A stretch of DNA of 40,079 nt, taken from a virus. The translations under genes were made by a program, and so were the position numbers. Shown in pieces: positions 7,995 through 20,071 of this stretch. The notes below the pieces were generated by a model. It made no database searches and had not been told where the DNA came from. It was given only the letters and a program-made list of their open reading frames with translations. The DNA lies in IMG/VR virus record IMGVR_UViG_3300042982_000063, positions 1-40,079 of that record; one strand, given 5' to 3'. The first letter of the stretch is position 1. Each line of letters begins with the position of its first letter.

Positions 7995-8222
7995 CTATTC
8001 CTTTCTATTTGCTACAGGAAAGTCTGGGGGGAAATACTCCCCTTTGACTTTGACCCATTCAAGGCTTCGCTTCTGAACTTTTCTAACGGGCAGATCGGCA
8101 CAATCTTGACACAATCTTATTCCCCCAAGCACATGCTCGAAGACCTCTAAATCATCTTTTATTCCACAATTCTCACAACTAGGCTTGCTCCGGGCCTTTA
8201 TCTGTTCCTTCGCTTTCCCCAT
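7995..8222 (-). CDS. Small zinc-finger protein (75 aa)
   Basis: Contains CENCGIKDDLEVFEHVLGGIRLCQDCADLPVRK, a CxxC...CxxC treble-clef-like zinc ribbon. It is short and basic, with no HNH catalytic His pair seen, so it is not a complete HNH nuclease. The start at ATG 8222 overlaps the end of the upstream 84-aa gene. It lies directly before the terminase large subunit, where HNH or small terminase genes often sit, so a packaging accessory role is possible but unproven. Confidence 0.75.
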   Translation of the reverse strand: MGKAKEQIKARSKPSCENCGIKDDLEVFEHVLGGIRLCQDCADLPVRKVQKRSLEWVKVKGEYFPPDFPVANRKE

Positions 8223-8433
8223 TATTCTCCTTAGGCAGTTCCTTTCGATTGCTTAAAATCTCAAAGGCGGTTATGTCTTCGACCGAAATGAAGATGTCAT
8301 TAACGTGGTCGTTCATCTTAAGAAACTTAGGATGCGCAACCAATTCATCTAACGTAGCATCATCACAATACATTCCAATTAGTTGACCGTTACCCAGAAC
8401 GATCTTCAACATGTGATCTTTTTGATTCGTCAT
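8179..8433 (-). CDS. First gene of the late operon, unknown function (84 aa)
   Basis: Starts at ATG 8433 behind a strong RBS (AGGAGAGTA). The body (LKIVLGNGQLIGMYCDDATLDELVAHPKFL...ISVEDITAFEIL) looks like a small alpha/beta domain. The last 20 residues are hydrophilic and disordered. It overlaps the zinc-finger gene. No family recognised. Being first after the leftward promoter at about 8.53 kb, it marks the start of late transcription. Confidence 0.7.
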   Translation of the reverse strand: MTNQKDHMLKIVLGNGQLIGMYCDDATLDELVAHPKFLKMNDHVNDIFISVEDITAFEILSNRKELPKENNGESEGTDKGPEQA

Positions 8434-8489
8434 TACTCTCCTATAAATATTCTATTCATTTTGGGCTTAGCACAACCACCCGATTGTTA

Positions 8490-8503
8490 ACAGGAAATCC
8501 AGT
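8490..8503. promoter_or_regulatory. Operator-like variant ACAGGAAATCCAGT
   Basis: Two mismatches from the 14-bp palindrome at 6211. It lies just downstream of the proposed leftward late promoter, inside a larger inverted arrangement ACAGGA...TCCTGT (8490 to about 8516). Position suggests repression of late transcription. Confidence 0.4.
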
Positions 8504-8522
8504 TGATCATCCTGTAACTCAA

Positions 8523-8552
8523 GATATAGAAAATCCAATTAATTTACGACAA
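8523..8552 (-). promoter_or_regulatory. Leftward promoter of the late operon
   Basis: On the minus strand TTGTCG is followed after 18 bp by TATATC. The same arrangement (TTGACG, 18 bp, TATATC) occurs before the leftward early cluster at about 13.0 kb, which supports both. It is the only good candidate between the divergent 8433 and 8626 genes that could drive the structural operon. Confidence 0.45.
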
Positions 8553-8564
8553 GACATATTTTTC

Positions 8565-8594
8565 TTGATTACTGAAATTCCAGTGTGATATCTT
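8565..8594 (+). promoter_or_regulatory. Rightward promoter of the RtcB/par region with embedded operator
   Basis: TTGATT, 18 bp, TATCTT. The spacer is filled by ACTGAAATTCCAGT (8571-8584), one mismatch from the perfect palindrome at 6211, so a bound regulator would block RNA polymerase. A similar block (CAGTGTG, one base, TATCTTGT) recurs before the 17464 gene. Confidence 0.5.
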
Positions 8595-8625
8595 GTAAAG
8601 TAACAACTCAAACATGGGGGCATAA

Positions 8626-8832
8626 ATGGCTAGTTGGTCTTTAGAAGTGAATGACGACGGGTATGTAGTGGTAAGAGGTAATGTTCCTTTACCTGAATTT
8701 CAAAAGCTTCTGAAGAAGTATTGCAACGACAATTGGATGGTCGATATGCAGTGGGCTAAAGAGTTGGACGCCACCTTTGTTATCTGTAAGCCAGAACTAG
8801 CTAAGGAGTGGAAGAAAAATGCAGCTCATTAA
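8626..8832 (+). CDS. Hypothetical protein preceding RtcB (68 aa)
   Basis: ATG 8626 follows GGGGG at suitable spacing. The sequence (MASWSLEVNDDGYVVVRGNVPLPEF...) is a small mixed alpha/beta protein with many Trp and Lys residues. It overlaps the RtcB start by 14 bp, so the two are translationally coupled and probably act in the same process. No known family recognised. Confidence 0.7.
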   Translation: MASWSLEVNDDGYVVVRGNVPLPEFQKLLKKYCNDNWMVDMQWAKELDATFVICKPELAKEWKKNAAH

Positions 8833-9997
8833 CAATATTCCTATCTGGGGCGACCCGGACGCCGAAACAGTTTTACAGATGCAGGAAGCCTTTAAGCATG
8901 AAGCCGTTTACGGAGCTCTTATGGCAGATCACCATATTGGATATAGTGTCCCTATTGGTGGTGTACTTGCTTATGAAGGTAGGATTTGCGTCAACGGAGT
9001 CGGCTTTGATATCGCTTGCGGGAATAAAGCTGTTCGCGTGTCTGCTAACTCTAACGAAGTAAGAGATAACATCTATCGGACTATGAACGAAGTCCAGAAG
9101 CATATTAGCTTTGGAGTAGGAAGAAAAAACAAGGAAGTAGTAGAGCATGAATTATTTGATGATCCTCTTTGGAGCGATATACCATTACTTGCCTCACTCC
9201 TACCCAAAGCACGTGAGCAACTCGGAACTGTGGGGTCTGGAAATCACTATGTTGATATTTTCATTGATGATCTTGATCGTGTTTGGGTTGGCGTCCACTT
9301 CGGATCGCGGGGTCTAGGGCATACAATCTGTACACATTTCATAGAAAAAGCGGGGGGGAAGGATGGAATACATGCAAAACCAGTTGTCTTGGACGAAACT
9401 TCCGACCTCGGAGAACAGTATCTTAAGTGCATGGACATCGCTGGTCAATATGCTTACGCAGGCCGTGACTGGGTGTGTTCGCGCGTTGCGAAGATACTTC
9501 GGACTGACATCGTGGAGGAAGTACACAATCACCATAATTTCGCATGGAAAGAGTCTCACTATGGCAAAGACTTATGGGTTGTACGCAAAGGGGCGACGCC
9601 TAATATGCCCGGCATGCGCAGTTTCGTTGGCGGTTCGATGGGAGACTATAGCTTCATCCTTGAAGGAGTGGACAGCCCTGAATCAAAGAGCTCACTCTAT
9701 TCCACCATCCACGGGGCAGGACGGGTTATGGGTCGCGCTCAAGCTAAAGGGAAGTATAATCGCAAGACAGGTGAAGTTATTAGAGCTGGGCTGGTATCCA
9801 AGAACGACATGGAAGATTGGGTTAAACGTTTCGATGTCGAACTCCGGGGAGCTGGAGTGGATGAATCGCCGCATTGCTACAAACGCATAGAACAGGTTCT
9901 GTTCGCACATCGCGATACGGTTAAGGTAGTTCATCGCCTAAAACCGATCGGCGTCTGTATGGCCTCAGAAAACGAAATAGACCCATACAAGGATTAA
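8819..9997 (+). CDS. rtcB: RNA-splicing ligase RtcB
   Basis: 392 aa, in the range of short bacterial/phage RtcB proteins. Conserved blocks in order: GVGFDIACG (about 61-68, Mn-binding Asp and Cys), VGSGNHYVDI (His 143), VHFGSRGLGH (His 160), VHNHHNFAW (about 235), RKGATP (about 257), GGSMGDYSFI and HGAGR (298-302), whose His is the residue that becomes guanylylated. All metal and GMP ligands are present, so it should be active: it joins 2',3'-cyclic phosphate or 3'-phosphate ends to 5'-OH ends. In a phage it would repair RNAs cut by host ribonucleases. It is coupled to the 68-aa gene upstream and followed 1 bp later by the 121-aa gene. Confidence 0.95.
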   Translation: MQLINNIPIWGDPDAETVLQMQEAFKHEAVYGALMADHHIGYSVPIGGVLAYEGRICVNGVGFDIACGNKAVRVSANSNEVRDNIYRTMNEVQKHISFGVGRKNKEVVEHELFDDPLWSDIPLLASLLPKAREQLGTVGSGNHYVDIFIDDLDRVWVGVHFGSRGLGHTICTHFIEKAGGKDGIHAKPVVLDETSDLGEQYLKCMDIAGQYAYAGRDWVCSRVAKILRTDIVEEVHNHHNFAWKESHYGKDLWVVRKGATPNMPGMRSFVGGSMGDYSFILEGVDSPESKSSLYSTIHGAGRVMGRAQAKGKYNRKTGEVIRAGLVSKNDMEDWVKRFDVELRGAGVDESPHCYKRIEQVLFAHRDTVKVVHRLKPIGVCMASENEIDPYKD

Positions 9998-9998
9998 C

Positions 9999-10364
9999 AT
10001 GTACGTAGCAGAATTTAAATCTAATGAAGATGTTGCTAAAGAGTATTCCAATTACCAAGATAAGGAAGACTATGATCACATCTTAAAAACACTTAATGAG
10101 AGCACGGTTTATATTGCTTGGTACGGCGCCGGCTCTTACTGCGGTGAATCCTTTGTTCTTTTTGAGCATAACGGAATCCTCTATGAAGTAAATGCGGGCC
10201 ACTGCTCATGTTACGGACTTGAAGGTCAATGGGCTCCTGAAGAAACAAACTGGAAAGCCCTTGCTATACGCGATCACTTCAATGATGAGTATGATGAAAA
10301 TCAGACAGTTAACGAGTACCTACGCAAGCTTTGTGAGCAGCAACTCGGAACTTCTTTACAGTAA
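9999..10364 (+). CDS. Conserved-looking protein of unknown function (121 aa)
   Basis: Starts one base after the RtcB stop, with AAGGATTAAC as RBS. The centre contains YIAWYGAGSYCGESFVLFEHNGILYEVNAGHCSCYGLEGQW, a compact Cys/His/Gly-rich block like proteins often seen in phage genomes next to nucleic-acid genes. No catalytic motif is certain. Its 3' end abuts the parA promoter. It may be part of the RtcB operon function. Confidence 0.7.
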   Translation: MYVAEFKSNEDVAKEYSNYQDKEDYDHILKTLNESTVYIAWYGAGSYCGESFVLFEHNGILYEVNAGHCSCYGLEGQWAPEETNWKALAIRDHFNDEYDENQTVNEYLRKLCEQQLGTSLQ

Positions 10365-10383
10365 TACTGCAACACGCTATAAC
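10355..10383 (+). promoter_or_regulatory. parA promoter with embedded 12-mer motif
   Basis: TTTACA, 17 bp, TATAAC. The spacer holds ATACTGCAACAC (10364-10375), and a second CAACAC lies 21 bp further on (10391-10396). Partition operons are usually autoregulated by the small DNA-binding partner, so this is a good candidate operator. Other copies of the 12-mer occur at 11243, 20982, 26339 and 35296. Confidence 0.6.
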
Positions 10384-10408
10384 GTAAGTACAACACAAAG
10401 GAGTGCTT

Positions 10409-11173
10409 ATGAGAATCATAGCGATATCGAACCAAAAAGGCGGTGTGGGTAAGTCCACGACCGCTATCAATCTTGCTGCCGGGTTGGCGTATTGCGGTAA
10501 TAAAGTATTACTGGTAGACATCGACCCTCAAGGAAACACCTCTAAAGGTCTTGGAATCAGCACCGAATCCAAGCTCACTATCTCCGATCTTCTCTGCAAT
10601 GAATCTGTATGTGTAGCTGATGTGCGTCAGCCCACCTACATCAAAGACCTTGATATCATACCGGCTGATCTATCTCTCGCCATCGCAGACATGAAACTAT
10701 CCTCTATGGGCGCAAAGGAATTTCGCCTCAAGAATAAGATCGAAAATGAGCAGCATGACTACATCATTATCGACTGCCCCCCTAACTTCGGAAACCTAAC
10801 GATCAATTCCTTCATTGCAGCTAAGGAAATCATCCTGCCAGTTCAATTACGCTATTTTGCCTTGGAGGGCGTCAATAGCTTCATTGAGACTGTCAACTAC
10901 ATCAACGAAAAAATCGGCTGGGTTCAAAAACATAGGATCGAGATTACAGGCGTCTTAGTAACCTTCCATGATCTACGCGCAAATGCAGCTAAGGAAGTAA
11001 ATACCGCCCTTCAGGAAATCTTCGGAAACAAGTTGCTAAATACAGTAATACCGCAAAACATCAAGCTGGATGAGGCACAAAAGAACGGCAAGTCGATCTT
11101 CGATTACGCGCCGGATTCAAAAGGGGCAGAAGCTTATCGTAGCCTAGTGGAGGAAGTAAAATGTCGAGTATAG
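10409..11173 (+). CDS. parA: ParA-type partition ATPase
   Basis: 254 aa from ATG 10409, chosen because AAGGAG precedes it by 6 bases; the ATG three codons upstream is less well placed. It has the deviant Walker A KGGVGKST (residues 10-17), Walker A' VLLVDIDPQGN, Walker B YIIIDCPPNFG, and the family's IKLDEAQKNGKSI...YDP-like C-terminal block (about 215-235). There is no N-terminal HTH, so it is the small chromosomal/soj-like or type Ib form. It overlaps the following RHH gene by 13 bp. A ParA in a phage points to plasmid-like segregation during lysogeny. Confidence 0.93.
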   Translation: MRIIAISNQKGGVGKSTTAINLAAGLAYCGNKVLLVDIDPQGNTSKGLGISTESKLTISDLLCNESVCVADVRQPTYIKDLDIIPADLSLAIADMKLSSMGAKEFRLKNKIENEQHDYIIIDCPPNFGNLTINSFIAAKEIILPVQLRYFALEGVNSFIETVNYINEKIGWVQKHRIEITGVLVTFHDLRANAAKEVNTALQEIFGNKLLNTVIPQNIKLDEAQKNGKSIFDYAPDSKGAEAYRSLVEEVKCRV

Positions 11174-11430
11174 ATCAGGCTAAAGAGAGCATAAAAAAGA
11201 AGATGAGTTTAATGGATTATGAAGGAATACCGCAATCCGATAACACAGCAACACAGCAAGAAGTAAAGACTTTAAAACAGGAAAAAGTTAAAGTCACAGT
11301 TTACCTGACTGAAGAGCATTGGAAAATGTTTAACGACTTATGCTTGCAGGAGATGAAGCGATCAGGGAAGCCTGAAAAATCTCAAATCATCTGCGATGCT
11401 ATCGAAGCACTCTACAAAGCCCGGCAATAA
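11161..11430 (+). CDS. Small ParB-like ribbon-helix-helix partner protein
   Basis: 89 aa. RBS GGAGGAAGTAAA; the ATG lies inside the 3' end of parA, the usual arrangement of parAB pairs. The N-terminal 45 residues are flexible and Gln/Lys-rich, ending in TLKQEKVKV. Residues about 42-89 (VTVYLTEEHWKMFNDL...SQIICDAIEALYKA) look like a ribbon-helix-helix DNA-binding domain. It would bind the centromere and stimulate ParA. A copy of the ACACAGCAACAC motif, as a tandem AACACAGC repeat, lies in its own coding sequence at 11243. Confidence 0.8.
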   Translation: MSSIDQAKESIKKKMSLMDYEGIPQSDNTATQQEVKTLKQEKVKVTVYLTEEHWKMFNDLCLQEMKRSGKPEKSQIICDAIEALYKARQ

Positions 11431-11443
11431 CCGGGCCTTTCTT
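11419..11443 (+). terminator. Intrinsic terminator of the par operon
   Basis: Stem GCCCGG / CCGGGC with a 6-nt loop, followed by CTTTCTT, overlapping the last codons and stop of the ParB-like gene. On the minus strand the same stem is followed by a short T-run (CTTTG), so it may also end leftward transcription from the 11.45-13.0 kb cluster. Confidence 0.75.
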
Positions 11444-11452
11444 ATGCCCCTG

Positions 11453-11674
11453 TTACGGCACTGCAGGATCCTGCCACTCTGTTGAGTTTATAATCTCTCG
11501 ATTCAAATACCAGATCGCTTTGCGGAGATCCTCAACCCGATCGCCCTTCTTACCTGCCCTCAGGATATACTTCACAGCATTGCCTAGATGGAACCCAAGA
11601 TCGAAACCCTCTATAACTTCAATGCTCTCCATGCCGCGCCCTTTATAGTGCGACGGGTGATTAACATTATCCAT
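11453..11674 (-). CDS. DUF3310 family protein (73 aa)
   Basis: Shows the family pattern almost whole: VNHPSHYKGRGMESIEVIEGFDLGFHLGNAVKYILRAGKKGDRVEDLRKAIWYLNREI. DUF3310 proteins are widespread in phages, sometimes annotated as SaV-like nucleotide kinases, but no enzyme activity is certain. Last gene of the leftward early cluster; its ATG overlaps the end of the 81-aa gene. Confidence 0.88.
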   Translation of the reverse strand: MDNVNHPSHYKGRGMESIEVIEGFDLGFHLGNAVKYILRAGKKGDRVEDLRKAIWYLNREIINSTEWQDPAVP

Positions 11675-11912
11675 TCATAGTCCTTAAGTTAGAAAGGTTT
11701 ACACACCTACCCGGATACTGAATAGCAACCTTACTATTGTCTAAGTAAATCTTACCATTATCTATCCGGGTGACTGTGCAGCGAACTAATACAGCTGAGC
11801 ACCCTTCTACTTGAGGCTTCAGAAGTCTATCACCTAATTTTATCTCTGCCCCGAAAAAGTCCTTATGTTCTGAGGACATAAATCTGTCCCAGTCCGGTCT
11901 TTCTCTATCCAT
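11667..11912 (-). CDS. Hypothetical early protein (81 aa)
   Basis: Begins MDRERPDWDRFMSSEHKDFFGAEIKLGDRLLKPQ, then a beta-rich stretch (CSAVLVRCTVTRIDNGKIYLDNSKVAIQYP). The pattern resembles small SH3-like beta-barrel proteins of phage early regions (a 'GDRV...V..I..GKIYL' layout). It overlaps both neighbours by a few bases, so the cluster is co-translated. No function assigned. Confidence 0.7.
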   Translation of the reverse strand: MDRERPDWDRFMSSEHKDFFGAEIKLGDRLLKPQVEGCSAVLVRCTVTRIDNGKIYLDNSKVAIQYPGRCVNLSNLRTMNG

Positions 11913-12234
11913 TTAAGTAATCCTCAGGGCGCACGGCCTTAAGAGTTAATCTTCCATCCACCCACGCATGTTCTAAGATGCCAAAGCCGTGAACCATCTC
12001 ATCGGCTAGGCACTTACCATACTCTTGAATCGAGACGCCATCCATCCCTTCCTTGAAAGTCTTTAAGGCCTTCGTTAGATGAAACGCTACATCCTGAGGA
12101 TGGTAATCAGTTCCCCACATAGCTCTATTCACCACACGCTGAGGATCCAAGATCTCCTCGGCGTAGGTGAATTGACGAACCCTTCCTATATGCTCTAATT
12201 CCCTTAGAGCCTTACGAAAAGAATTCATTAGCAA
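11905..12234 (-). CDS. Hypothetical early protein (109 aa)
   Basis: MLMNSFRKALRELEHIGRVRQF...: largely helical. Contains DPQRVVNRAMWGTDYHPQDVAFHLTKALKTFKEGMDGVSIQEYGKCLADEMVHGFGILEHAWVDG. The start at 12234 is an ATG two codons before an in-frame ATG (12228), and either may be used. It overlaps the upstream gene's end by 7 bp. No family recognised with confidence. Confidence 0.7.
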   Translation of the reverse strand: MLMNSFRKALRELEHIGRVRQFTYAEEILDPQRVVNRAMWGTDYHPQDVAFHLTKALKTFKEGMDGVSIQEYGKCLADEMVHGFGILEHAWVDGRLTLKAVRPEDYLNG

Positions 12235-12629
12235 GCTCCACGGCAGCGATCATCTTCGCGTTCATCATTAATATTATCGAGGATCAAGGTTAATCTGGAC
12301 TGTATAACCTTCATATCACTCAGGTTCTTACCCAAACGAGCTATCTCATTAACTAATTGTTCGATCTTAATATTAAGTGCTTTAAGATCTTTCTTCGAAG
12401 TTTCTTCAATGAAACTAACTGTGTCGTCATCAAACATTTTCTTCTTTCCTCTGTTAATCATGTTAAATTTATACTCAGGCATCTCACTCAACTGCCTAGA
12501 CTTTCTAAGATTGACCACCCACGCGTCATTCAAGATCCTCGTCCCCTGATTAAACTTTCAGCCGAGTACGTCCAGCTCAGGAACGAAGCTAAATCGGTGC
12601 TCATATTGAGGCTTGTAAACTAGTTCCAT
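12228..12629 (-). CDS. Early gene with in-frame TGA (133 codons if read through)
   Basis: From ATG 12629 (overlapping the TAA of the 40-aa gene, TAATG) the frame reads 23 codons ending DVLG, then TGA at 12560-12558, and continues in the same frame to TAA 12228. The segment just after the TGA (KFNQGTRILNDAWVVNLRKS) looks like real protein. A coiled coil follows (LKALNIKIEQLVNEIARLGKNL). The context of the TGA (CTC GGC TGA AAG TTT) is nearly the same as in the RusA gene. If the TGA terminates, the products would be a 23-aa peptide and a protein restarting at TTG 12533 or ATG 12437, the latter with GAGG upstream. Function unknown. Confidence 0.55.
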
Positions 12630-12751
12630 TACACCTTCTCCCCTCTCATCATTTTCTTAAACCTGCGCCAATGATTATTCTGTGTCTCCTCTTTACCCAC
12701 TGATAAGACCCGAAACATCTTGCGCAACTTTTTAACCCTAACTTTACGCAT
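12629..12751 (-). CDS. Small very basic early protein (40 aa)
   Basis: Too short for most ORF callers. It starts at ATG 12751, inside the last codons of the 77-aa gene, and stops with TAA in a TAATG overlap. Sequence begins MRKVRVKKLRKMFRVLS and ends WRRFKKMMRGEKV, with 15 Lys/Arg residues. The tight overlaps on both sides and the composition argue it is translated. It may bind nucleic acid. No family recognised. Confidence 0.6.
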   Translation of the reverse strand: MRKVRVKKLRKMFRVLSVGKEETQNNHWRRFKKMMRGEKV

Positions 12752-12977
12752 TCTCACCGCCAGCCGTAATCTTGATTCTATAAACCGATGAACTAGAGTT
12801 CAGCTGGTTGCCCTCAACTTTCGACAGCATATTAGTCAGAACTATAGTAGCCTCATCCATCAAACGAAATATATCGACTTTCTCGTCTTCAACATCTTTA
12901 GCACAAGAGTCTCTATAGAACGTAAACTCGAATACCTCCGAAGACTTCCTCTTGATACTCAACTCAGATAACGCCAT
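12744..12977 (-). CDS. First gene of the leftward early cluster (77 aa)
   Basis: ATG 12977 (MALSELSIKRKSSE) is chosen because GGAGG lies 5 bases upstream; the ATG four codons earlier lies within that site. It is a small alpha/beta protein with SSEVFEFTFYRDSCAKDVEDEKVDIFRLMDEATIVL. Function unknown. Its promoter is at 13003-13032. Confidence 0.65.
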   Translation of the reverse strand: MALSELSIKRKSSEVFEFTFYRDSCAKDVEDEKVDIFRLMDEATIVLTNMLSKVEGNQLNSSSSVYRIKITAGGENA

Positions 12978-13002
12978 ATATACCTCCATAATCTTAACTG
13001 AA

Positions 13003-13032
13003 GATATAACTGAACGTTCTCGATAGCGTCAA
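13003..13032 (-). promoter_or_regulatory. Leftward early promoter
   Basis: Minus strand TTGACG, 18 bp, TATATC, ending about 25 bp before the first RBS of the 12.98-11.45 kb cluster. It has the same -10 and spacing as the proposed late promoter at 8523-8552. Confidence 0.55.
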
Positions 13033-13140
13033 GAAAAAATTAACTGGATATTGAAATAAATTTCTGTGAAATGTCTAGACGAAAATATTTGAAAAAGATA
13101 CATTGAGGTTGTTCATTGATATCCTTAGTTTTGTGTTGGG

Positions 13141-13169
13141 GGTCACTCTCGCAAGAGAGTGGCCTTTTT
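13141..13169 (+). terminator. Strong intrinsic terminator upstream of the 13246 gene
   Basis: GGTCACTCTC, loop GCAA, GAGAGTGGCC, then TTTTTG: a 10-bp stem with one G-T pair. It points rightward although no rightward gene precedes it, so it insulates the 13246 gene, acts as an attenuator, or ends a small RNA transcribed from the 12.98-13.14 kb gap. Confidence 0.75.
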
Positions 13170-13245
13170 GTTTGTACAAATATCCTTAATGTTAGTAATC
13201 TACTGCCCTCAACTAACCTAGAACACATATTAAGGAGTTTTTTTA

Positions 13246-13758
13246 ATGTCAGGTTTTAAAATAGTAGCAGCAGCTTCATCTGCTTTTTCTGCCGTCGGAG
13301 CTGCAGTAGGTTTTGGTGTGGCGGGCCCAGTAGGTGCTACAGAAGGGGCAAAAGTAGGATTAGCATTAGGGGCTCAAGTAGGAATGCTAGCCAAAGGTGA
13401 AGAAGCCGCAGATGCAGTAGGTGCGAAGCTAGCAAGTGGTATAGACGCAGCCGGAGAAAAACTAGGTATTGCCGCAGATAAAACAGGAGAAGCAATACAG
13501 AAACTTTGTGAAGTATCAGGTAAGTGTATTGTGCAAATAGCTGATGTTTGGTCTAAGTTAGCCCTGTGTGGTTACACTATCAATATGGCTATGGGCTCCT
13601 CTCATGTCAATGTTGATAAATACAACCTAGTTTGTAAAACTGCATATGAGAGCCTCAATTGCGCTACAATGTCAGTTACCACACTCTCTTTGAATATGTT
13701 AATAGTCAGTTCCACATTAGCTGCCGGAATAACCATTTACCATCTGGTGAGAAAATGA
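13246..13758 (+). CDS. Ala/Gly-rich putative membrane protein (170 aa)
   Basis: ATG 13246 behind AAGGAGTTTTTTTA. Residues 1-50 are a glycine-zipper-like hydrophobic segment (AASSAFSAVGAAVGFGVAGPVGATEGAKVGLALG). Residues about 55-85 form an amphipathic Ala-rich helix with AAG/DAAGEKLG spacing. The C-terminal 30 residues are a clear membrane span (LSLNMLIVSSTLAAGITIYHLVRK) with a basic end. Several Cys lie between. Stop TGA overlaps the next ATG (ATGA). A pore, holin-like or superinfection-exclusion role is possible. No family recognised. Confidence 0.7.
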   Translation: MSGFKIVAAASSAFSAVGAAVGFGVAGPVGATEGAKVGLALGAQVGMLAKGEEAADAVGAKLASGIDAAGEKLGIAADKTGEAIQKLCEVSGKCIVQIADVWSKLALCGYTINMAMGSSHVNVDKYNLVCKTAYESLNCATMSVTTLSLNMLIVSSTLAAGITIYHLVRK

Positions 13759-14132
13759 AAGTAAACCTCGATAACATACAATCCCATATAACCCCCGTTG
13801 TAGATACAAAATCTTCAGACTTCCGTATCGCTGGTAAGACCATGTTGCCAGCTATATTAGGTTGTGCGCTACTTCAAGGGGTTGTAGATTACATAAGAAC
13901 GTCATCAGCTGAGCATGTAGCCAGCATGGTTATAACCTCTCTTGACTATAGCAAATGGGGATTACTAGCCCTAGGAGCTTTATACTTCTATAGCAAGATG
14001 GACGCTAAACACCAAACTTTGAATGGAAGAAGGATTGAACAGGTACAGATACCCAAACAAGATATCCAAGAAATGCAAGCAGAAATTATACGATTAAGAC
14101 AAGAGAACCAACAGCTACTCACTAATCAATAA
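13755..14132 (+). CDS. Putative membrane protein with C-terminal coiled coil (125 aa)
   Basis: ATG 13755 overlaps the TGA of the previous gene. A longer frame opens upstream, but that part is read from the neighbour's coding sequence. Two hydrophobic stretches are visible (about 33-46, LPAILGCALLQGV, and 68-82, WGLLALGALYFYS), followed by a charged coiled coil (IQEMQAEIIRLRQENQQLL). Topology suggests two membrane passes with a cytoplasmic coiled coil. It forms a two-gene unit with the 170-aa protein, closed by a 15-bp hairpin. Confidence 0.7.
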   Translation: MKVNLDNIQSHITPVVDTKSSDFRIAGKTMLPAILGCALLQGVVDYIRTSSAEHVASMVITSLDYSKWGLLALGALYFYSKMDAKHQTLNGRRIEQVQIPKQDIQEMQAEIIRLRQENQQLLTNQ

Positions 14133-14138
14133 ACGTCA

Positions 14139-14173
14139 CCTTTCTACCAATTTTTAAGAAATTGGTAGAAAGG
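14139..14173. terminator. Perfect 15-bp inverted repeat between convergent genes
   Basis: CCTTTCTACCAATTT, loop TTAAG, AAATTGGTAGAAAGG. It lies just after the rightward membrane pair and over the 3' end of the leftward 42-aa gene. There is no U-run on either side, so it may act as a stem-type terminator or RNA-stabilising element for both directions. Confidence 0.5.
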
Positions 14174-14282
14174 CTCCCCGCTTATGGGAGAGCCACTTTC
14201 GAGTGTTATGACGCACATGACCCTGCCATCCACAACAAGGACAATCTCTATGCCACTTCTTGTAATACTTCTTTTTGGTCAT
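14154..14282 (-). CDS. Small Cys/His zinc-finger-like protein (42 aa)
   Basis: Starts at ATG 14282 (GAAGG 6-7 bases upstream) inside the end of the 56-aa gene, in another frame. Sequence MTKKKYYKKWHRDCPCCGWQGHVRHNTRKW... has CPCC plus His residues spaced for a metal site, and is very basic. Translation is supported by the RBS and the overlap pattern. No family recognised. Confidence 0.5.
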   Translation of the reverse strand: MTKKKYYKKWHRDCPCCGWQGHVRHNTRKWLSHKRGAFLPIS

Positions 14283-14418
14283 ACAATGCCTTCATTAATC
14301 TCTTCTTAGATGCGTACAAGCGATTGCCTGTACACCATGAACAGTTAGAACCACACCCCTTACGCCTCGGACCTCTCCACTCTTTGTTGCGAGCCTTGAT
14401 AGCTTTCTCTAAAGACAT
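14248..14418 (-). CDS. Small Cys-rich basic protein (56 aa)
   Basis: ATG 14418 behind AGGAG with 7-base spacing, overlapping the end of the 108-aa gene. Sequence MSLEKAIKARNKEWRGPRRK, then CGSNCSWCTGNRLYASKKR. The CxxxCxxCxGNR pattern is typical of small phage proteins with one metal site. Stop TAG. Probably co-expressed with the 108-aa and 42-aa genes. Confidence 0.65.
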   Translation of the reverse strand: MSLEKAIKARNKEWRGPRRKGCGSNCSWCTGNRLYASKKRLMKALYDQKEVLQEVA

Positions 14419-14686
14419 CCCACATCTCCTGTTCTATGCGTGATCTAATCTCTATTTTATTAGATTCCACAATTGTTTGCGCATGCTCAGGCGGTAACTC
14501 CACATACTCTCTACCATTCACAGCCTCGCCATCAAGATATCTAGGCGCATTCAATATGTCATCTAACTGCTTAGCAACAGTAGGATCGTTAACAATAAAC
14601 TCATAAACCTCGATCTCTTCTTGCAACTCTTCTAACTCTTTATACTTCTTCTCCAACATCATCTTCGATGCAGTCCTTATATCCAT
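14360..14686 (-). CDS. Coiled-coil hypothetical protein (108 aa)
   Basis: Start taken at ATG 14686 (MDIRTASKMM); an in-frame ATG four codons upstream overlaps the GGGGTG RBS. The N-terminal half is a Glu/Lys coiled coil (LEKKYKELEELQEEIEVYEFI), followed by DPTVAKQLDDILNAPRYL and a charged C-terminus. First gene of a three-gene leftward unit facing the repeat region at 14.7-15.0 kb. Function unknown. Confidence 0.65.
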   Translation of the reverse strand: MDIRTASKMMLEKKYKELEELQEEIEVYEFIVNDPTVAKQLDDILNAPRYLDGEAVNGREYVELPPEHAQTIVESNKIEIRSRIEQEMWDVFRESYQGSQQRVERSEA

Positions 14687-14699
14687 AATACACCCCATA

Positions 14700-15041
14700 A
14701 AAAAAAATTTAGAATCAAATGTACGATTTTATCGTATAGTTCGTTTCAGAGATACAAAATAGGATTCTGAACATTATGATGGTAAAAAATTTACGAAACC
14801 TCGCGTGAGAGATCAATTATACGATTCTGAACATAATGATCGTAAAAATGTGCGAAAGTGAGCTGGGATGAAATAGATATAGTACCGGTTCGATTAAGGA
14901 TGGTGCCCCCTGCCTTTTCCGGGTAGAGTCCCTCGCCCGCGCGTTGTTTGAACGCTACCGAATGTTAACCGTTCAGCTATTGCGTGTATTGTGTGTACTT
15001 GTGGATAGTGTGTGAAGGCACTAGCATTGCGCTAGCGTATG
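14700..15041. other. Gene-free repeat region, candidate replication origin or regulatory centre
   Basis: No ORF is visible. It contains the inverted repeat TACGAT-TTT-ATCGTA at about 14722-14736. Two direct repeats sit exactly 60 bp apart (AGAGAT at 14748 and 14808; GATTCTGAACAT at 14763 and 14823; then GATSGTAAAAA). It also has a GC-rich block (14900-14940), a DnaA-box-like TGTGGATAG at 15000-15008, and the imperfect palindrome TAGCAT...ATGCTA at about 15021-15043. Iteron-like repeats with AT-rich flanks fit an origin. Promoter control of the 14.69 kb leftward unit is an alternative. Confidence 0.4.
14748..14860. repeat. Two direct repeats of a 60-bp unit
   Basis: Units begin at 14748 and 14808. 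The best-conserved core is GATTCTGAACAT, A/T, ATGAT, G/C, GTAAAAA (14763-14788 and 14823-14848), with weaker matches on both sides. They lie directly upstream of the leftward 108-aa gene. Confidence 0.7.
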
Positions 15042-15476
15042 CTAAGACTCTGCTGGATTCTTAGAGCGGTTGAATATGAAGTCTAAAGCGCCTCTAGTTG
15101 CGCTCTCAGCGATAACGTCACGATCTTGATCATATCCACGCTTTCTTCCTAGTGTCTTAAGGGCAAACAACATGCTGACAGTATCGCCAGAGAGGACTTT
15201 GTTTTGAAACACATCTTCTGTTTCATCCAAGAAACGCTCTCTACATGTGTCTAGACATTCTTGTATCACTGTTTCGCTCTTTCTTCGCAAGTCCAAAGTT
15301 TGCCTACAGATGCCTAGTTTATCAGCTGCCCTTGATAGGTTGCCTCTACACTTGCGAATAGCGTCGAGGATATCTTCGGTAGGAACTTTAGTTCTTACTG
15401 TTGGATTCTTTGATTTAACGCCTACGCGATTATTACCTTTTGGAAAGCCCATACTGATTAACTTTGCGTGATTCAC
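15042..15476 (-). CDS. HTH protein, possible terminase small subunit (144 aa)
   Basis: The N-terminus is basic (MGFPKGNNRVGVKSKNPTVRTK). Residues about 35-65 form a Fis/Hin-type helix-turn-helix (DILDAIRKCRGNLSRAADKLGICRQTLDLRRK). Next comes a helical part with FLDETEDVFQNKVLSGDTVSMLFALKTLGRKRGY, a pattern seen in phage terminase small subunits and related DNA-binding proteins. It is far from the large terminase on the map. Start could be GTG 15476 or ATG 15452; neither has a strong RBS. Stop TAG. A regulator of the nearby repeat region is the alternative. Confidence 0.6.
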   Translation of the reverse strand: MNHAKLISMGFPKGNNRVGVKSKNPTVRTKVPTEDILDAIRKCRGNLSRAADKLGICRQTLDLRRKSETVIQECLDTCRERFLDETEDVFQNKVLSGDTVSMLFALKTLGRKRGYDQDRDVIAESATRGALDFIFNRSKNPAES

Positions 15477-15796
15477 ATGTTTACTAGTTAGCTTGTTAGT
15501 CTAGACCGCTGGGCGCGGTATCGCCATTAGTCAAGCTTGATTATACCTTCATCTTAACATATTCGATCATTTATTTTAAAATCATGGCCTTTCCCTAGAG
15601 AGAATCGACTATTTTCACTGAATTTTCAGAAAGTCATTGACTGGGATTTCAGTTGTCTGTTATGGTAATCACCATTCAAGCGTTGTTAACTGGAAAGCTG
15701 AATAATCCTAGCGAGCGAATACGCAATGACCTAGAGAGAAACGCAAGTACGTTAGAGACGGTTGAGTACACAACAACTAAACTAAGAGATACTAAT
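15477..15796. promoter_or_regulatory. Divergent intergenic region with promoter and operator-like site
   Basis: Contains ACTGAATTTTCAGA (15617-15630), a variant of the 14-bp palindrome, seven bases before TTGACT (15637-15642), then 18 bp and TATGGT (15661-15666): a good rightward promoter. About 130 bp of leader follow, ending in CTAAACTAAGAGATACTAAT before ATG 15797. The same leader block precedes ardA. An ORF spans part of the leader but is unlikely to be translated. Confidence 0.5.
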
Positions 15797-16147
15797 ATGG
15801 GATATTCATGCAGCGCGAGAGCGCGTTATACACTCGATCAAGTCGAATTCCTTGACGAATTCGATATCAAGTCACCTAACTACAAGTATTTTATCGAGAT
15901 AGGCAAAGAGAATGCCGACGGCGCCATAACCGGCGCTGTCTATGAAATTACCGGCATCCCTTATCGCGATAAAGATAACTACGAAAGAAGATCATGCCGG
16001 AAGGCGGGAACATTCAGAATTGAGCCTAATGGATCAATCAAGCGTTTTGCAGGATTATCTAAGCGTATGTTTGGCGTTTTAGAGATTGCCGGCATAGAGG
16101 CTTATGACCGTGAATATGCTAGGGGGTGGAATTATGTGTATAGTTGA
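15797..16147 (+). CDS. Hypothetical accessory protein (116 aa)
   Basis: Start at ATG 15797 (MGYSCSARARYTLDQVEF), chosen over an upstream in-frame start because AAGAGATACTAAT precedes it and the same leader stands before ardA. It is a basic alpha/beta protein containing YFIEIGKENADGAITGAVYEITGIPY and a C-terminal RMFGVLEIAGIEAYDREYARGWNY. No family recognised. First gene of the accessory operon with HTH, ArdA and recombinase genes; restriction evasion or control is a plausible context-based role. Confidence 0.65.
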   Translation: MGYSCSARARYTLDQVEFLDEFDIKSPNYKYFIEIGKENADGAITGAVYEITGIPYRDKDNYERRSCRKAGTFRIEPNGSIKRFAGLSKRMFGVLEIAGIEAYDREYARGWNYVYS

Positions 16148-16262
16148 ATACACCCTTAACAATCAAACATCGCGCTACACCTTTGGAGGGTGGCGCGAGG
16201 CATTAGAATTCGCTAGTCAATACACCAAGCAATACACACACTTACGGATATATTCACTATGA
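16134..16262 (+). CDS. Small hypothetical protein (42 aa)
   Basis: ATG 16134 preceded by GGGGGTGGAATT, overlapping the previous gene's end. Sequence begins MCIVEYTLNNQTSRYTFGGW. The TGA stop overlaps the next gene's ATG (CTATGA). Short, but held on both sides by overlaps, so probably translated. Confidence 0.6.
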   Translation: MCIVEYTLNNQTSRYTFGGWREALEFASQYTKQYTHLRIYSL

Positions 16263-16459
16263 AAGAAGATATCAGAATCATGATTAAAGAATATAAGAAA
16301 GAGTTGTACATCTTAGAGACTAGGCGCATGGCTGAAAAGAAGGCCGGACGCGACGAGAATGAATCTTATTTCCTAGGTCAATGGTGTAAGCTAGGCAGTA
16401 TCATATGCGACCTACAAGCGTTATTGCGTAGACATGCAAAGGGCGATGTCATGCGTTAA
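16259..16459 (+). CDS. Hypothetical helical protein (66 aa)
   Basis: ATG 16259, coupled to the 42-aa gene by a 4-bp ATGA overlap. Sequence MKEDIRIMIKEYKKELYILETRRMAEKKAGRDE... is helical and Lys/Arg/Glu-rich. Last gene before the autoregulated HTH gene. No function recognised. Stop TAA. Confidence 0.6.
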   Translation: MKEDIRIMIKEYKKELYILETRRMAEKKAGRDENESYFLGQWCKLGSIICDLQALLRRHAKGDVMR

Positions 16460-16524
16460 TTGATAGACTATCGTCTATGTTTTAATTCGATAGTCATAGA
16501 TAGATTAAATTATCTATGGCTATC
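16460..16524 (+). promoter_or_regulatory. Promoter and two operators of the HTH gene
   Basis: TTGATA (16460-16465), 17 bp, TAATTC (16483-16488). Operator 1, ATAGAC-TATC-GTCTAT, lies at 16463-16478 in the spacer. Operator 2 spans 16489-16524 with arms GATAG-t-CATAGATA and TATCTATG-g-CTATC, and covers the ATG of the HTH gene. The shared CTAT/ATAG half-sites suggest binding of one repressor, most likely the HTH protein itself. Confidence 0.6.
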
Positions 16525-16740
16525 AATAAAAACCAATCTATTAAGAAAACCTTTGGGCTAACGGTGCGTATGTTGCGCTATCAAGCTGAAATGTCGCAAG
16601 AGCAACTTGCGGAGCGTTCCCACCTGCATCCCACCTATATAAGCTCAGTAGAGCGTGGGCAAAGAAGCGTAGGCCTTGAAAAGATTGTACATATTGCCCG
16701 TGCGTTAGGCGTTTCGCCTAAAGATCTGATGCCCGATTGA
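16516..16740 (+). CDS. XRE/Cro-type HTH regulator (74 aa)
   Basis: A single HTH_3 domain: TFGLTVRMLRYQAEMSQEQLAERSHLHPTYISSVERGQRSVGLEKIVHIARALGVSPKDLM, with the usual five helices. There is no C-terminal protease or dimerisation domain, so it is a small restriction-controller (C-protein)- or Cro-like repressor. The ATG lies inside an inverted repeat and no Shine-Dalgarno is visible, so translation may be leaderless or weak. Probably controls itself and the neighbouring ardA operon. Stop is TGA followed directly by in-frame TAG. Confidence 0.85.
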   Translation: MAINKNQSIKKTFGLTVRMLRYQAEMSQEQLAERSHLHPTYISSVERGQRSVGLEKIVHIARALGVSPKDLMPD

Positions 16741-16794
16741 TAGCAAACTTTACTCCTTAGTTATAAGGGTTAACGACTTGCGATCAATCGCAAG
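16737..16794 (+). promoter_or_regulatory. ardA promoter and leader palindrome
   Basis: TTGATA (16737-16742), 18 bp, TTATAA (16761-16766). Just downstream is the perfect inverted repeat CTTGCGAT-ca-ATCGCAAG (16777-16794), an operator or leader hairpin. Confidence 0.5.
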
Positions 16795-16822
16795 ACACAA
16801 CACTAAACTAAGGGATATTATT

Positions 16823-17356
16823 ATGGCACGCGTATACGTTGCTTGTTTAGCATCATATAATAACGGTTGGTTGCATGGTAAATGGATTGATGCAGCACAG
16901 GACTATGACACATTTAGAGATGAGATTAACGAGATGTTAAAACAATCGCCTGTTACTAAGGAATACGGCGAAATAGCGGAAGAGTGGGCAATTCATGATT
17001 ATGAGGGTTTTGGCTCTTATCGCGTGCAGGAATGGAGCGATTTAAAGGAGTTATGCGAGATTGCTAACCTTATTGAAAATGAAGATAACGGCGAATTAAT
17101 CCTTGAAATTATGGATCATTTAGGCTCAGGGACAAGCATTGAAGATGCAAAAGAATTTCTTGATAACAATTATCAAGGAACTCATAAAGACGTTGGGGAG
17201 TATGCCGAATACATAACGGAAGAATGTGGCACCGAAATTCCTAAGCACCTTCAACATTATATTGATTATGATCGTATGGGGCGAGATATGGAGTTAAACG
17301 GCGACATATTCACTCTAGAACTCAATGATGGGTTGCATGTATTTTGGAATCACTAA
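16823..17356 (+). CDS. ardA: Antirestriction protein ArdA
   Basis: 177 aa from ATG 16823, behind AAGGGATATTATT. It shows the ArdA signature through its full length: RVYVACLASYNNGWLHGKWIDA at the start, EEWAIHDYEGFGSYRVQEW in the middle (the antirestriction motif region), YAEYITEECGTEIPKHLQHYIDYDRMGRDMELNGDIF and VFWNH at the end. ArdA is a DNA-mimic acidic dimer that inhibits type I restriction-modification enzymes. It is controlled by its own promoter with a palindrome in the leader. A longer reading from TTG 16778 is unlikely. Confidence 0.95.
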   Translation: MARVYVACLASYNNGWLHGKWIDAAQDYDTFRDEINEMLKQSPVTKEYGEIAEEWAIHDYEGFGSYRVQEWSDLKELCEIANLIENEDNGELILEIMDHLGSGTSIEDAKEFLDNNYQGTHKDVGEYAEYITEECGTEIPKHLQHYIDYDRMGRDMELNGDIFTLELNDGLHVFWNH

Positions 17357-17360
17357 CCGG

Positions 17361-17384
17361 CTGGAATTTGTTTGAAATTCCAGT
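17361..17384. promoter_or_regulatory. Operator-like inverted repeat after ardA
   Basis: CTGGAATTT (17361-17369) and AAATTCCAG (17375-17383) separated by five bases; the right arm with flanks matches the 14-bp palindrome seen at 6211. It precedes the CAGTGTG, one base, TATCTTGT block (about 17412), which resembles the -10 region at 8582-8596. Confidence 0.5.
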
Positions 17385-17463
17385 AAGTAATCATTTAGCT
17401 AACAAGATAACTGTCAGTGTGCTATCTTGTTGGCTTAAACAACCAAAACACTATGGAGATACT

Positions 17464-17745
17464 ATGAACAAGCAAGAAATAGAACAGGCGAGAGAAGATT
17501 ATAAGAAGATATGGCAAGACATGACGCTAGATTATGACAGCGCCGGCATGCCGACCGTTAAGGTATCATATGCAGCTGTTTTGACGCGACCCTTGTTTTA
17601 TCCTGTTAACAAATTCGCGTATGGCCTAGCGATCTTAATGAGGCGCAAAACCTTTACTAAAATAGAAATAGATCATATGCGCGCAATGGGGTTTGTGGTA
17701 GAAGTTGAAGTAAAGAAGGTTGAATTACCGGAGGCGTGTAGATGA
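17464..17745 (+). CDS. Hypothetical accessory protein (93 aa)
   Basis: ATG 17464 (MNKQEIEQAREDYKKIWQDM) chosen for GGAGATACT upstream; the frame opens earlier but that part covers the promoter. Contains AVLTRPLFYPVNKFAYGLAILMRRKTFTKIEIDHMRAMGF. No family recognised. TGA stop overlaps the next ATG by 4 bases. Confidence 0.65.
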   Translation: MNKQEIEQAREDYKKIWQDMTLDYDSAGMPTVKVSYAAVLTRPLFYPVNKFAYGLAILMRRKTFTKIEIDHMRAMGFVVEVEVKKVELPEACR

Positions 17746-18047
17746 ATTTTATTGACATCGAGACTGTCCAGAATCTTGACGAATACATTTTCGCTCTTGG
17801 CGCGTTTTCGGCATCCATAAAATCAGCATATGAACTACAATCTAAGGCCTTAGCGAGTGAATTCCTAGAAGGAGATGAGCGCGAACTAGTGGAGACAATT
17901 CGATACCAACTAGGACGCTCTTTAGTAGCCATATCAGACCTTCTAAGGGTTATGGACCAGCGCGCTATCATCAATGCGGATGAAGTAGGCGAACGCATGC
18001 TAGCTAAATGCCGGCAAGCGGTAAAACAAATACAAGATGAACCATAA
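17742..18047 (+). CDS. Hypothetical accessory protein (101 aa)
   Basis: ATG 17742 overlaps the previous stop; GGAGG lies 8-9 bases upstream. Helical protein (NLDEYIFALGAFSASIKSAYELQSKALASEFLEGDERELVETIRYQLG). No membrane span. Part of the operon leading to the recombinase. Function not recognised. Confidence 0.65.
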   Translation: MNFIDIETVQNLDEYIFALGAFSASIKSAYELQSKALASEFLEGDERELVETIRYQLGRSLVAISDLLRVMDQRAIINADEVGERMLAKCRQAVKQIQDEP

Positions 18048-18080
18048 TGTAGCCAGTAATAAAAACAAAGGAAAAAGTTT

Positions 18081-18368
18081 ATGGATGAAAATACATGGAG
18101 AATAGTCCAAATGGCTATGTGGCTAGTGGGCATACAAACGACCGTCATAATCGCGGTATTTGGCGCTATGTGGGCCAGCATGCTCCGCAGGTTTGACGCT
18201 ATGGATAAGAAGTTTACCGAAAAGTTTGAGATCTTAGAAAAGAAGATCGAAAAGCTAGATGAAAAGGTTACAGATATAGACCGTCGAGTATGTCGTATGG
18301 AAGGTGCTTTTCAGAATAAAGAATGTTGCATGATTAAAGACTCTAGCCAGTTAAAGAAGGCTGAATGA
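18081..18368 (+). CDS. Single-span membrane protein with coiled coil, holin/XhlA-like layout (95 aa)
   Basis: One N-terminal transmembrane segment (about residues 9-34, MAMWLVGIQTTVIIAVFGAMWASML), then a heptad-rich coiled coil (FTEKFEILEKKIEKLDEKVTDIDRRV) and a Cys-containing tail. This layout resembles XhlA-like haemolysin/holin accessory proteins and also small membrane sensors. RBS AAAGGAAAAAGTTT. TGA stop overlaps the recombinase ATG. The lysis role is only a possibility. Confidence 0.6.
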   Translation: MDENTWRIVQMAMWLVGIQTTVIIAVFGAMWASMLRRFDAMDKKFTEKFEILEKKIEKLDEKVTDIDRRVCRMEGAFQNKECCMIKDSSQLKKAE

Positions 18369-19120
18369 TGCGGTATGTTATATATCTAAGAGTCTCTACA
18401 GACAAGCAAGAGGACTCCGGATTAGGCTTAGAGGCTCAGCGTCATGCCTGTATGCAGTGGATAGAGAAGCTTGGAGGCGGTGACATTACCGAGTTTATCG
18501 ACGTTGTGACCGGGACAGATAGAAAAAGGAAAGAGCTAGAAGAGCGTCCTAAACTGCTAGAAGCTCTCTCCCTACTGACAAAAGGTGACGTGCTTATCGT
18601 TCATAAAAGAGAGCGACTTGCGCGAGACCCTTATATTATGGGCATGATTGAGCGTATCATAGAAAAGAAAAAAGCGAAACTTGTTTCTGCAATAGGTGAA
18701 ATGGAGGGCGACGAACCGCATAACGTTTTACTTAGAGGGATCATGGATCTCTTTGCTCACTATGAGGCGCTGGTTATCTCTACGCGCACTAAGGCAGCTC
18801 TATCGCGCAAGAAGGCGCGCGGTGAGCGCGTTGGGCGTGTACCATACGGCCAGCGTCTAAACGCTGATGGATTGTTAGAGAATAACCCGGAAGAGGCTAA
18901 AATCCTTAAGAAGATGTATACCTACAGGGTGCACCAGAAACTTAGTTTTAGGGACATCGCTGATCGTTTAAACGAAGAAGGCCTGCGCAATCGCGGGGGT
19001 GGAATCTGGACGCACGGTGCTACGTCCAGAGTCTACATTAACTACGAGAAGATTTTGGCCGGCCTCGTTTCTTTGGGGCAACCGTCGGATCGTAGAAAAA
19101 GTCCGGTATGTACTCCTTAA
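18365..19120 (+). CDS. Serine recombinase (resolvase/invertase type with C-terminal HTH)
   Basis: 251 aa. YVIYLRVSTDKQ at the N-terminus carries the nucleophilic Ser. KRERLARDPYIMGMI gives the conserved catalytic Arg residues, and HYEALVISTRTKAALSRKKARGERVGRVPYG is the E-helix and linker. The C-terminus (RVHQKLSFRDIADRLNEEGLRNRGGGIWTHGATSRVYI) is a DNA-binding HTH. It is shorter than large serine integrases but matches the many 230-260-aa phage/plasmid recombinases. It could resolve plasmid dimers or integrate. Its 3' end overlaps the convergent gene by 83 bp. Confidence 0.9.
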   Translation: MMRYVIYLRVSTDKQEDSGLGLEAQRHACMQWIEKLGGGDITEFIDVVTGTDRKRKELEERPKLLEALSLLTKGDVLIVHKRERLARDPYIMGMIERIIEKKKAKLVSAIGEMEGDEPHNVLLRGIMDLFAHYEALVISTRTKAALSRKKARGERVGRVPYGQRLNADGLLENNPEEAKILKKMYTYRVHQKLSFRDIADRLNEEGLRNRGGGIWTHGATSRVYINYEKILAGLVSLGQPSDRRKSPVCTP

Positions 19121-19625
19121 CAAGAGTGCGAATTGGCGGTCTCAAGTCCCAGAATGTTAGGATATCTAACATTTTGGGCAAATTCATTACATAAAAGCGC
19201 TTGGTTCGGTGCTTGCATCCCAGATTACATTTACGCTCCCAGTAGTATGTGAGCTGAATATCGACTTCTTGAATAGGGGTACACATGAAGTGATAATCTT
19301 TATTTCTCTTTTCTTCATAGAGAGAGTAATAATCGTCATCATCTTCAGTGTATTCGTCATCATAAATCTGATCGCAAACTTTCTGCATCTCACTATTCAA
19401 ACGGCACAACTTATCGGGCCAAGAATATTCAAAATGAACATCTTCGAATTCTTCATTCAAAGCCAAAATAAAGTCTTTTAACTTCTTTAAAAAACCTTCT
19501 TTGAAGATACATTCTTTTATTTCATTAGAAACATTCTGATAATAAAATGATTGATCATGCCTTAATAAATCATTTAATAACCGAGCCTTTTGTTCTTTTA
19601 AAGACTCTTCTACTGCGTCGGCCAT
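19038..19625 (-). CDS. Hypothetical protein with AT-hook-like tail (195 aa)
   Basis: ATG 19625 (MADAVEESLKEQ) behind GGAGG; an in-frame GTG four codons upstream is possible. Largely helical and acidic (YDDEYTEDDDDYYSLYEE), with WERKCNLGCKHRTKRFYV in the middle and a C-terminal KKRGRPKSS, an AT-hook-like minor-groove binding motif. Last gene of the leftward replication operon, overlapping RusA upstream and the convergent recombinase. A 13-bp hairpin (19148-19178) lies inside the coding region. No family recognised. Confidence 0.7.
   Translation of the reverse strand: MADAVEESLKEQKARLLNDLLRHDQSFYYQNVSNEIKECIFKEGFLKKLKDFILALNEEFEDVHFEYSWPDKLCRLNSEMQKVCDQIYDDEYTEDDDDYYSLYEEKRNKDYHFMCTPIQEVDIQLTYYWERKCNLGCKHRTKRFYVMNLPKMLDILTFWDLRPPIRTLVKEYIPDFFYDPTVAPKKRGRPKSSRS
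19148..19178. repeat. 13-bp inverted repeat inside the 195-aa gene
   Basis: CCCAGAATGTTAG, loop GATAT, CTAACATTTTGGG with one G-T pair. It lies about 30 bp beyond the recombinase stop on the plus strand, so it may help end rightward transcription, though no U-run follows. Confidence 0.45.
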
Positions 19626-20071
19626 GTGCCCTCCCACACTTCATTCATCGTTAAAATTTTATCCGTCTCTTCTATGTAGATTTCTACTCTAGGCTTAGAA
19701 GAGTATACCTTGACCGCTGACCCTATAGAGACCGCGTTATCATCGGCGATAGCTGTACCGCTCAGGACATCCAGATACAGCTTGATTAAATTGTCTACGT
19801 CAGGCTTTTTTATATGTTTCAAATACCCTTTAACGGCGTCAACGCGCTGACGTTTGGGCATGCTCTTAGGAATCGGCATATAAAACCAAAACATCACACG
19901 CGGGTATTCCGGAAACTTTCAGTTGAGGCGCTCGATTTGATCGAGCACCTGCAATTTAAGTTCCCGTTTAAGCACCGTTTGAGGGTCGAAGGTCATCACC
20001 CTCGGCCCTCTTTTAAAAACCCTTATTCGAGCTTGGGCGACCGGATCTCCCGGAAGTATTAACTTGATCAT
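19610..20071 (-). CDS. rusA: RusA-type Holliday junction resolvase with in-frame TGA at codon 51
   Basis: From ATG 20071 (TAATG overlap with the RNA ligase stop) the frame reads MIKLILPGDPVAQARIRVFK... for 50 codons, then TGA (19921-19919), then continues in frame for 102 codons to TAG 19610. The second part has FWFYMPIPKSMPKR, KKPDVDNLIKLYLDVL (Asp 91, Asp 93, Lys 97) and IADDNAV (Asp 110), the metal-binding acidic residues of RusA. The first part is the normal N-terminal strand of phage RusA proteins, so both halves are needed. The total of 153 codons is normal. UGA readthrough, reinitiation at GTG 19897 or ATG 19894, or a recent nonsense mutation are possible. The TGA context matches the one at 12.56 kb. 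Confidence 0.85.

Follow-up and report, generated by a model that had tools for sequence, protein, structure and literature searches.

A stop codon inside a conserved gene raises the question of whether it is read by the ribosome, and as which amino acid. Two minus-strand genes of the stretch analysed here (the window, 40,079 bases; IMG/VR virus record IMGVR_UViG_3300042982_000063, a virus of bacteria) pose this question together, as each is interrupted by an in-frame TGA and the surroundings of the two TGAs are nearly the same. The original prediction was that this shared context is a recoding signal. Positions 8000-20000 of the window had no megablast match among known phage records, and a search for the host with the RusA and capsid proteins as queries against 84,980 species genomes also returned no match.

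Capsid-like gene interrupted by TGA

The first of the two genes, gene 2, occupies positions 12228-12629 (minus strand) and has the predicted layout: 23 codons (12629-12561), a TGA (12560-12558) as codon 24 of the 133-codon frame, and 109 further codons in the same frame followed by TAA. Judging from its position only, it may be an early gene. Both sides of the TGA are conserved in five phages, and the sequence past the TGA is indeed coding, with a pN/pS of 0.27 among relatives over the first 20 codons after it. Relatives of gene 2 are present in G001, G002, G004 (and G008) and G007, and the context GGC TGA AAG TTT is found in all five distinct homologues.

The N-terminal 43 codons of gene 2 (12501-12629) resemble the C-terminus of the major capsid protein of the same phage (1854-2795, minus strand). 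By hhalign, residues 20-43 matched capsid residues 287-310 (E-value 7.7e-6, 24 columns), which places the TGA exactly at capsid Trp291, encoded by TGG. A viral-contig search with the gene 2 alignment had capsid-type loci among its returns. In longer versions of the gene, the next stretch is weakly similar to the N-terminal region of the capsid protein (E-values of about 0.03-0.1), and the longer version in L180 has IFRRFEKL against IFRRFENL in the capsid protein. Based on these similarities, gene 2 is possibly a capsid mimic, and one may speculate that it acts in capsid assembly or exclusion. Its predicted structure is of low confidence (pLDDT 51). The C-terminal helical domain (12228-12437) begins with MFDDD, is preceded by a purine-rich stretch and may also be translated from its own start.

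RusA resolvase gene

The second gene (19610-20071, minus strand) encodes a RusA-like Holliday junction resolvase (PF05866, E-value 1e-21; phrog_140, E-value 1.5e-30) in a 153-codon frame, in which the TGA is codon 51 (19919-19921) within AAC TGA AAG TTT. Homologues were found in G003, G004, L110, G005 and G006, with 91%, 82%, 66%, 63% and 56% identity to the window protein, respectively. The aligned codon is TGA in the first four of these, each time followed by AAG, and TGG in G006. Five RusA lineages keep the TGA-AAG pair unchanged although their pS is saturated (about 0.8), and the residue after its lysine is variable (Phe, Gln or Arg); the TGA itself appears to be maintained by selection. 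The pN/pS ratio was 0.31 before the TGA, 0.20 just past it (13 codons) and 0.24 further on, and the first codons past the TGA include no start codon. The constraint on both sides and the lack of a start thus indicate that ribosomes pass the TGA in frame.

These data bear on two simpler explanations. The interrupted genes might each produce two proteins, a short peptide ending at the TGA and an independently started downstream protein, and the purine-rich stretch ahead of the conserved ATG of the gene 2 C-terminal domain would fit such an arrangement, as would G005, where this domain occurs without the capsid-like N-terminal part. However, constraint starts directly past the TGA, before any RusA start codon, and the TTG that follows the gene 2 TGA is replaced by TTA in G002 and G007. 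We also looked for homologues in which the two parts are separate genes with their own starts and found none for RusA or for the TGA-bearing N-terminal part of gene 2, so that two separate products seem highly improbable. As for a sequencing error or a pseudogene, the mere presence of stop codons is all that would suggest it, whereas the same TGA occurs in contigs of several independent samples and purifying selection acts on both sides of it; this explanation has a practically negligible chance of being correct.

Homologues have Trp (TGG) at both readthrough sites, namely G006 for RusA and the phage's own capsid protein for gene 2. From these alignments, UGA is very probably decoded as Trp in both genes. 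Selenocysteine was rejected, as the homologues have Trp and a consistent structure after the UGA is absent (z between -1.4 and +0.9 for RNA structure downstream of the TGA sites). At another in-frame TGA, in a zinc-ribbon gene of G005, the residue in relatives is Gln or Arg instead of Trp; like the missing RNA structure, this counts against the slow-stop explanation given below.

TGA-AAG context

The contexts of the gene 2 and RusA TGAs (CTC-GGC-TGA-AAG-TTT and CTC-AAC-TGA-AAG-TTT) are identical in 13 of 15 bases, as was noted at the outset. Exactly two copies of the 10-mer CTGAAAGTTT are present in the window against 0.19 expected, and this number was reached in 2 of 100 shuffles. The idea of a recoding signal is supported by our analysis, but the shared signal is TGA-AAG and not the 10-mer, since RusA relatives have TGA AAG CAA and TGA AAG CGT. 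In part, TGA-AAG is common to the two genes because both encode Trp-Lys at this point.

In the phages whose Trp codons are predominantly TGG, all four independent in-frame TGAs with homology support are followed by AAG. They are located in RusA, in gene 2, in the zinc-ribbon gene of G005 and at codon 10 of the G005 RNA ligase gene. Thus the random scatter of motif copies that would have spoken against a signal was not observed. For comparison, AAG is the next codon in 24 of 625 cases after TGG and in 6 of 89 cases after TGA in the phages using code 4 (UGA read as Trp) (Fisher p = 7e-5); no AAG preference after TGA exists in these sister phages. The AAG rule was first spotted on the two window sites, and its clean test is therefore given by the pair of sites in G005 (0.038 squared, about 0.0015) together with conservation. 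Gene ends with TGA-AAG also occur, at 13246-13758 in the window and 9197-9544 in G005, where the next stop is only 1 and 7 codons further on. For the remaining long frames, most of the apparent in-frame TGAs belong to antisense or upstream frames. A parB-like gene in G002 and G004 was rejected as a readthrough candidate and assigned an ordinary stop, its 41-codon extension resembling, by eye, the antisense of an opposite-strand gene.

RF2-type frameshift cassette in the RNA ligase gene

The third UGA-dependent gene encodes an RNA ligase (20071-20779, minus strand; PF09414, E-value 1.6e-13) and is adjacent to RusA, the two genes together covering 20779-19610. The ligase gene falls into two parts, a zero frame that runs to a TGA (20779-20699) and a +1 frame (20700-20071). 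The N-terminal part (in the window, MEYPKINSLWKRHGWYFDEKEKKECL) is out of frame with the rest in the window, G003, G004 and L110. The unsplit ligase of G011 aligned first to the zero frame (87%) and then to the +1 frame (69%). At the junction (20698-20713, minus strand), the sequence AAGGAG-TGT-CTT-TGA-C is identical in the same four phages. The known RF2 (release factor 2) frameshift cassette consists of a purine-rich SD-like element, a three-base spacer, CTTTGA and then C (PMC12421855). The ligase sequence matches this motif definition, having an SD-like element three bases ahead of CTT TGA C.

Among 15 contigs scanned, the ligase gene was the only place where a cassette is flanked by open frames on either side, and the test applied to the ligase identified no other split genes in the window. 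In the code-4 relatives the ligase is unsplit and the cassette is absent. In G005, the RNA ligase gene (37960-38649, plus strand) has its in-frame TGA-AAG at codon 10 instead of the frameshift seen in the window, so that, from sequence, a single ligase family would have two different UGA-dependent gates.

Proposed slow UGA stop as a gate of three genes

Such a cassette should function only if UGA terminates slowly, and this one cause would then cover all three genes. We propose that UGA is still a stop in the host, though a slow one, and that the phage uses it as a gate for three genes, with UGA-AAG readthrough in two of them and an RF2-type frameshift in the third; we consider this explanation reasonably probable. 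In RusA and the capsid-like gene, UGA before AAG would be read through with insertion of Trp to give a limited amount of full-length protein. The inserting tRNA is probably the normal tRNA-Trp, which would misread UGA with help from the following A. In the ligase gene, the pausing ribosome would slip +1 at CUU-UGA and go on with GAC. The output of all three genes should rise when RF2 is scarce. The coding continuity over the three UGAs, the Trp that homologues have at the two readthrough sites, and the cassette elements can be read from the sequences themselves; the tRNA used, the readthrough efficiency, the regulatory purpose and the status of UGA as a host stop are inferred.

UGA usage in the clade

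The main rival explanation is that the host reads UGA as Trp, either under code 4 or ambiguously, and that the two TGAs are ordinary, seldom-used Trp codons. The TGA share of conserved Trp codons is about 22-35% in four relatives, G011, G012, G013 and G014 (IMG/VR 3300012948_000012, 3300048897_000013, 3300012914_000015 and 3300048898_000007), in structural and other genes alike, with a maximum of 43 of 123. No suppressor tRNA with a UCA anticodon was found in the window or in any phage of the set. The UGA decoding of the code-4 members must therefore come from the host, and the hosts of these four phages presumably decode UGA as Trp. A tree built from the terminase, portal and capsid proteins puts the code-4 phages within the clade to which G005 and the window group belong, and RusA of G011 and G012 carries TGA at the same site. 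As a stop codon, TGA is depleted in the window clade (14 of 169 against 48 of 140), and 5 of 60 window genes end in it. Nesting among UGA=Trp phages and few TGA stops are as expected if the host reads UGA as Trp, which argues against a slow stop; the stop depletion taken by itself fits both views.

On the other hand, the TGA share of Trp codons is only about 1% in the window and its TGG-dominant relatives, and the homology-aligned Trp codons of the window comprise 152 TGG and one TGA, plus gene 2. TGA-Trp codons are thus too few for code 4 to apply to the whole window genome, and at such usage it would be unexpected for the same sites to stay TGA at synonymous saturation. Reading UGA as Trp would also defeat the RF2-type cassette of the ligase and would leave the AAG constraint unexplained, given the lack of an AAG preference in the code-4 phages. 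Furthermore, at one conserved gene end, the stop in G003 and G007 is TGA, and relatives stop at this residue with TAA. Altogether, we regard decoding by a UGA=Trp host as rather unlikely.

By another account, the UGAs are remnants of an ancestor with a UGA=Trp host; when the window clade switched to a host in which UGA is a stop, only those in a readable context survived, with no regulatory role. The tree and the RusA TGA held in common with code-4 relatives would agree with this, and in E. coli UGA followed by A is such a context, prone to misreading by tRNA-Trp (PMC5289835). As a sequence pattern, the TGA-AAG motif alone is compatible both with a remnant of this kind and with a signal in a host that stops at UGA. 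However, TGA kept through saturating divergence suggests active selection, and the frameshift cassette is too elaborate to be easily regarded as a leftover; we thus consider a pure remnant quite improbable.

The placement of the code-4 phages in the tree indicates that host or code switches have occurred in the clade. Combined with the slow-stop explanation, this leads us to the more tentative suggestion that the ligase frameshift and the readthrough of RusA and the capsid mimic form a gene set sensing RF2 capacity, in a clade with repeated moves between hosts of the standard code and hosts with UGA=Trp, and that the gates could be a stage of such moves or have been left behind by them.

Comparison with known systems

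UGA is read through by the normal tRNA-Trp in the Q-beta coat gene and in E. coli reporters. These cases share with the window genes the UGA and the A after the stop, and Trp is found here in homologues. In contrast to them, a dsDNA phage here has the stop early within enzyme genes, the full-length product requires readthrough, and AAG is conserved rather than A alone. The ligase gene resembles prfB, the RF2 gene, in its purine-rich SD-like element, three-base spacer and CTT TGA C near the gene start. It differs in being a phage RNA-ligase gene, in having AAGGAG instead of AGGGGG as the SD-like element, and in that its frameshift is predicted from sequence.

The code-compatible phages of Gracilibacteria and Absconditabacteria have a near-standard code, avoid TGA as a stop and have fully recoded relatives (PMC10746230). 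The window phage is likewise near-standard, avoids TGA stops and adjoins recoded relatives. However, those phages are without in-frame TGA, whereas the window keeps TGA in specific genes and in one context, and UGA is Trp in the recoded relatives of the window clade but Gly in those of the Gracilibacteria and Absconditabacteria phages (PMC10746230). The sister phages of the window, with UGA=Trp throughout, are similar to phages that have recoded a stop codon and carry suppressor tRNAs (reviewed in PMC10746230), but no member here has such a tRNA and the in-frame UGAs of the window are outside the late structural genes.

If the slow-stop explanation holds, readthrough in enzyme genes and an RF2-type frameshift outside a release-factor gene would tie phage output to the termination capacity of the host. 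The clade has close relatives on either side of the boundary between UGA as stop and UGA as Trp, and thus offers a natural series for the change from a stop codon to a sense codon. The proposed UGA dependence also means that RusA, the RNA ligase and the capsid-like gene are cut short in a standard annotation of this phage.

Other features of the window phage and its relatives

In addition to the split ligase (20779-20071, minus strand), the window encodes an RtcB-type ligase (8819-9997, plus strand). tRNA genes are carried by the relatives G004, G005 and G007, with thirteen in G005. The two RNA ligases, along with the tRNA genes of relatives, are possibly involved in tRNA repair. The window also encodes a ParA-like partition protein, followed by a small gene (10403-11430, plus strand), and a serine recombinase (18365-19120, plus strand). 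On this basis, the virus is possibly a temperate phage-plasmid. In L081, L082 and L084, the capsid gene match extends over 1154-1164 bases against the usual ~939, which suggests an insertion within the capsid gene.
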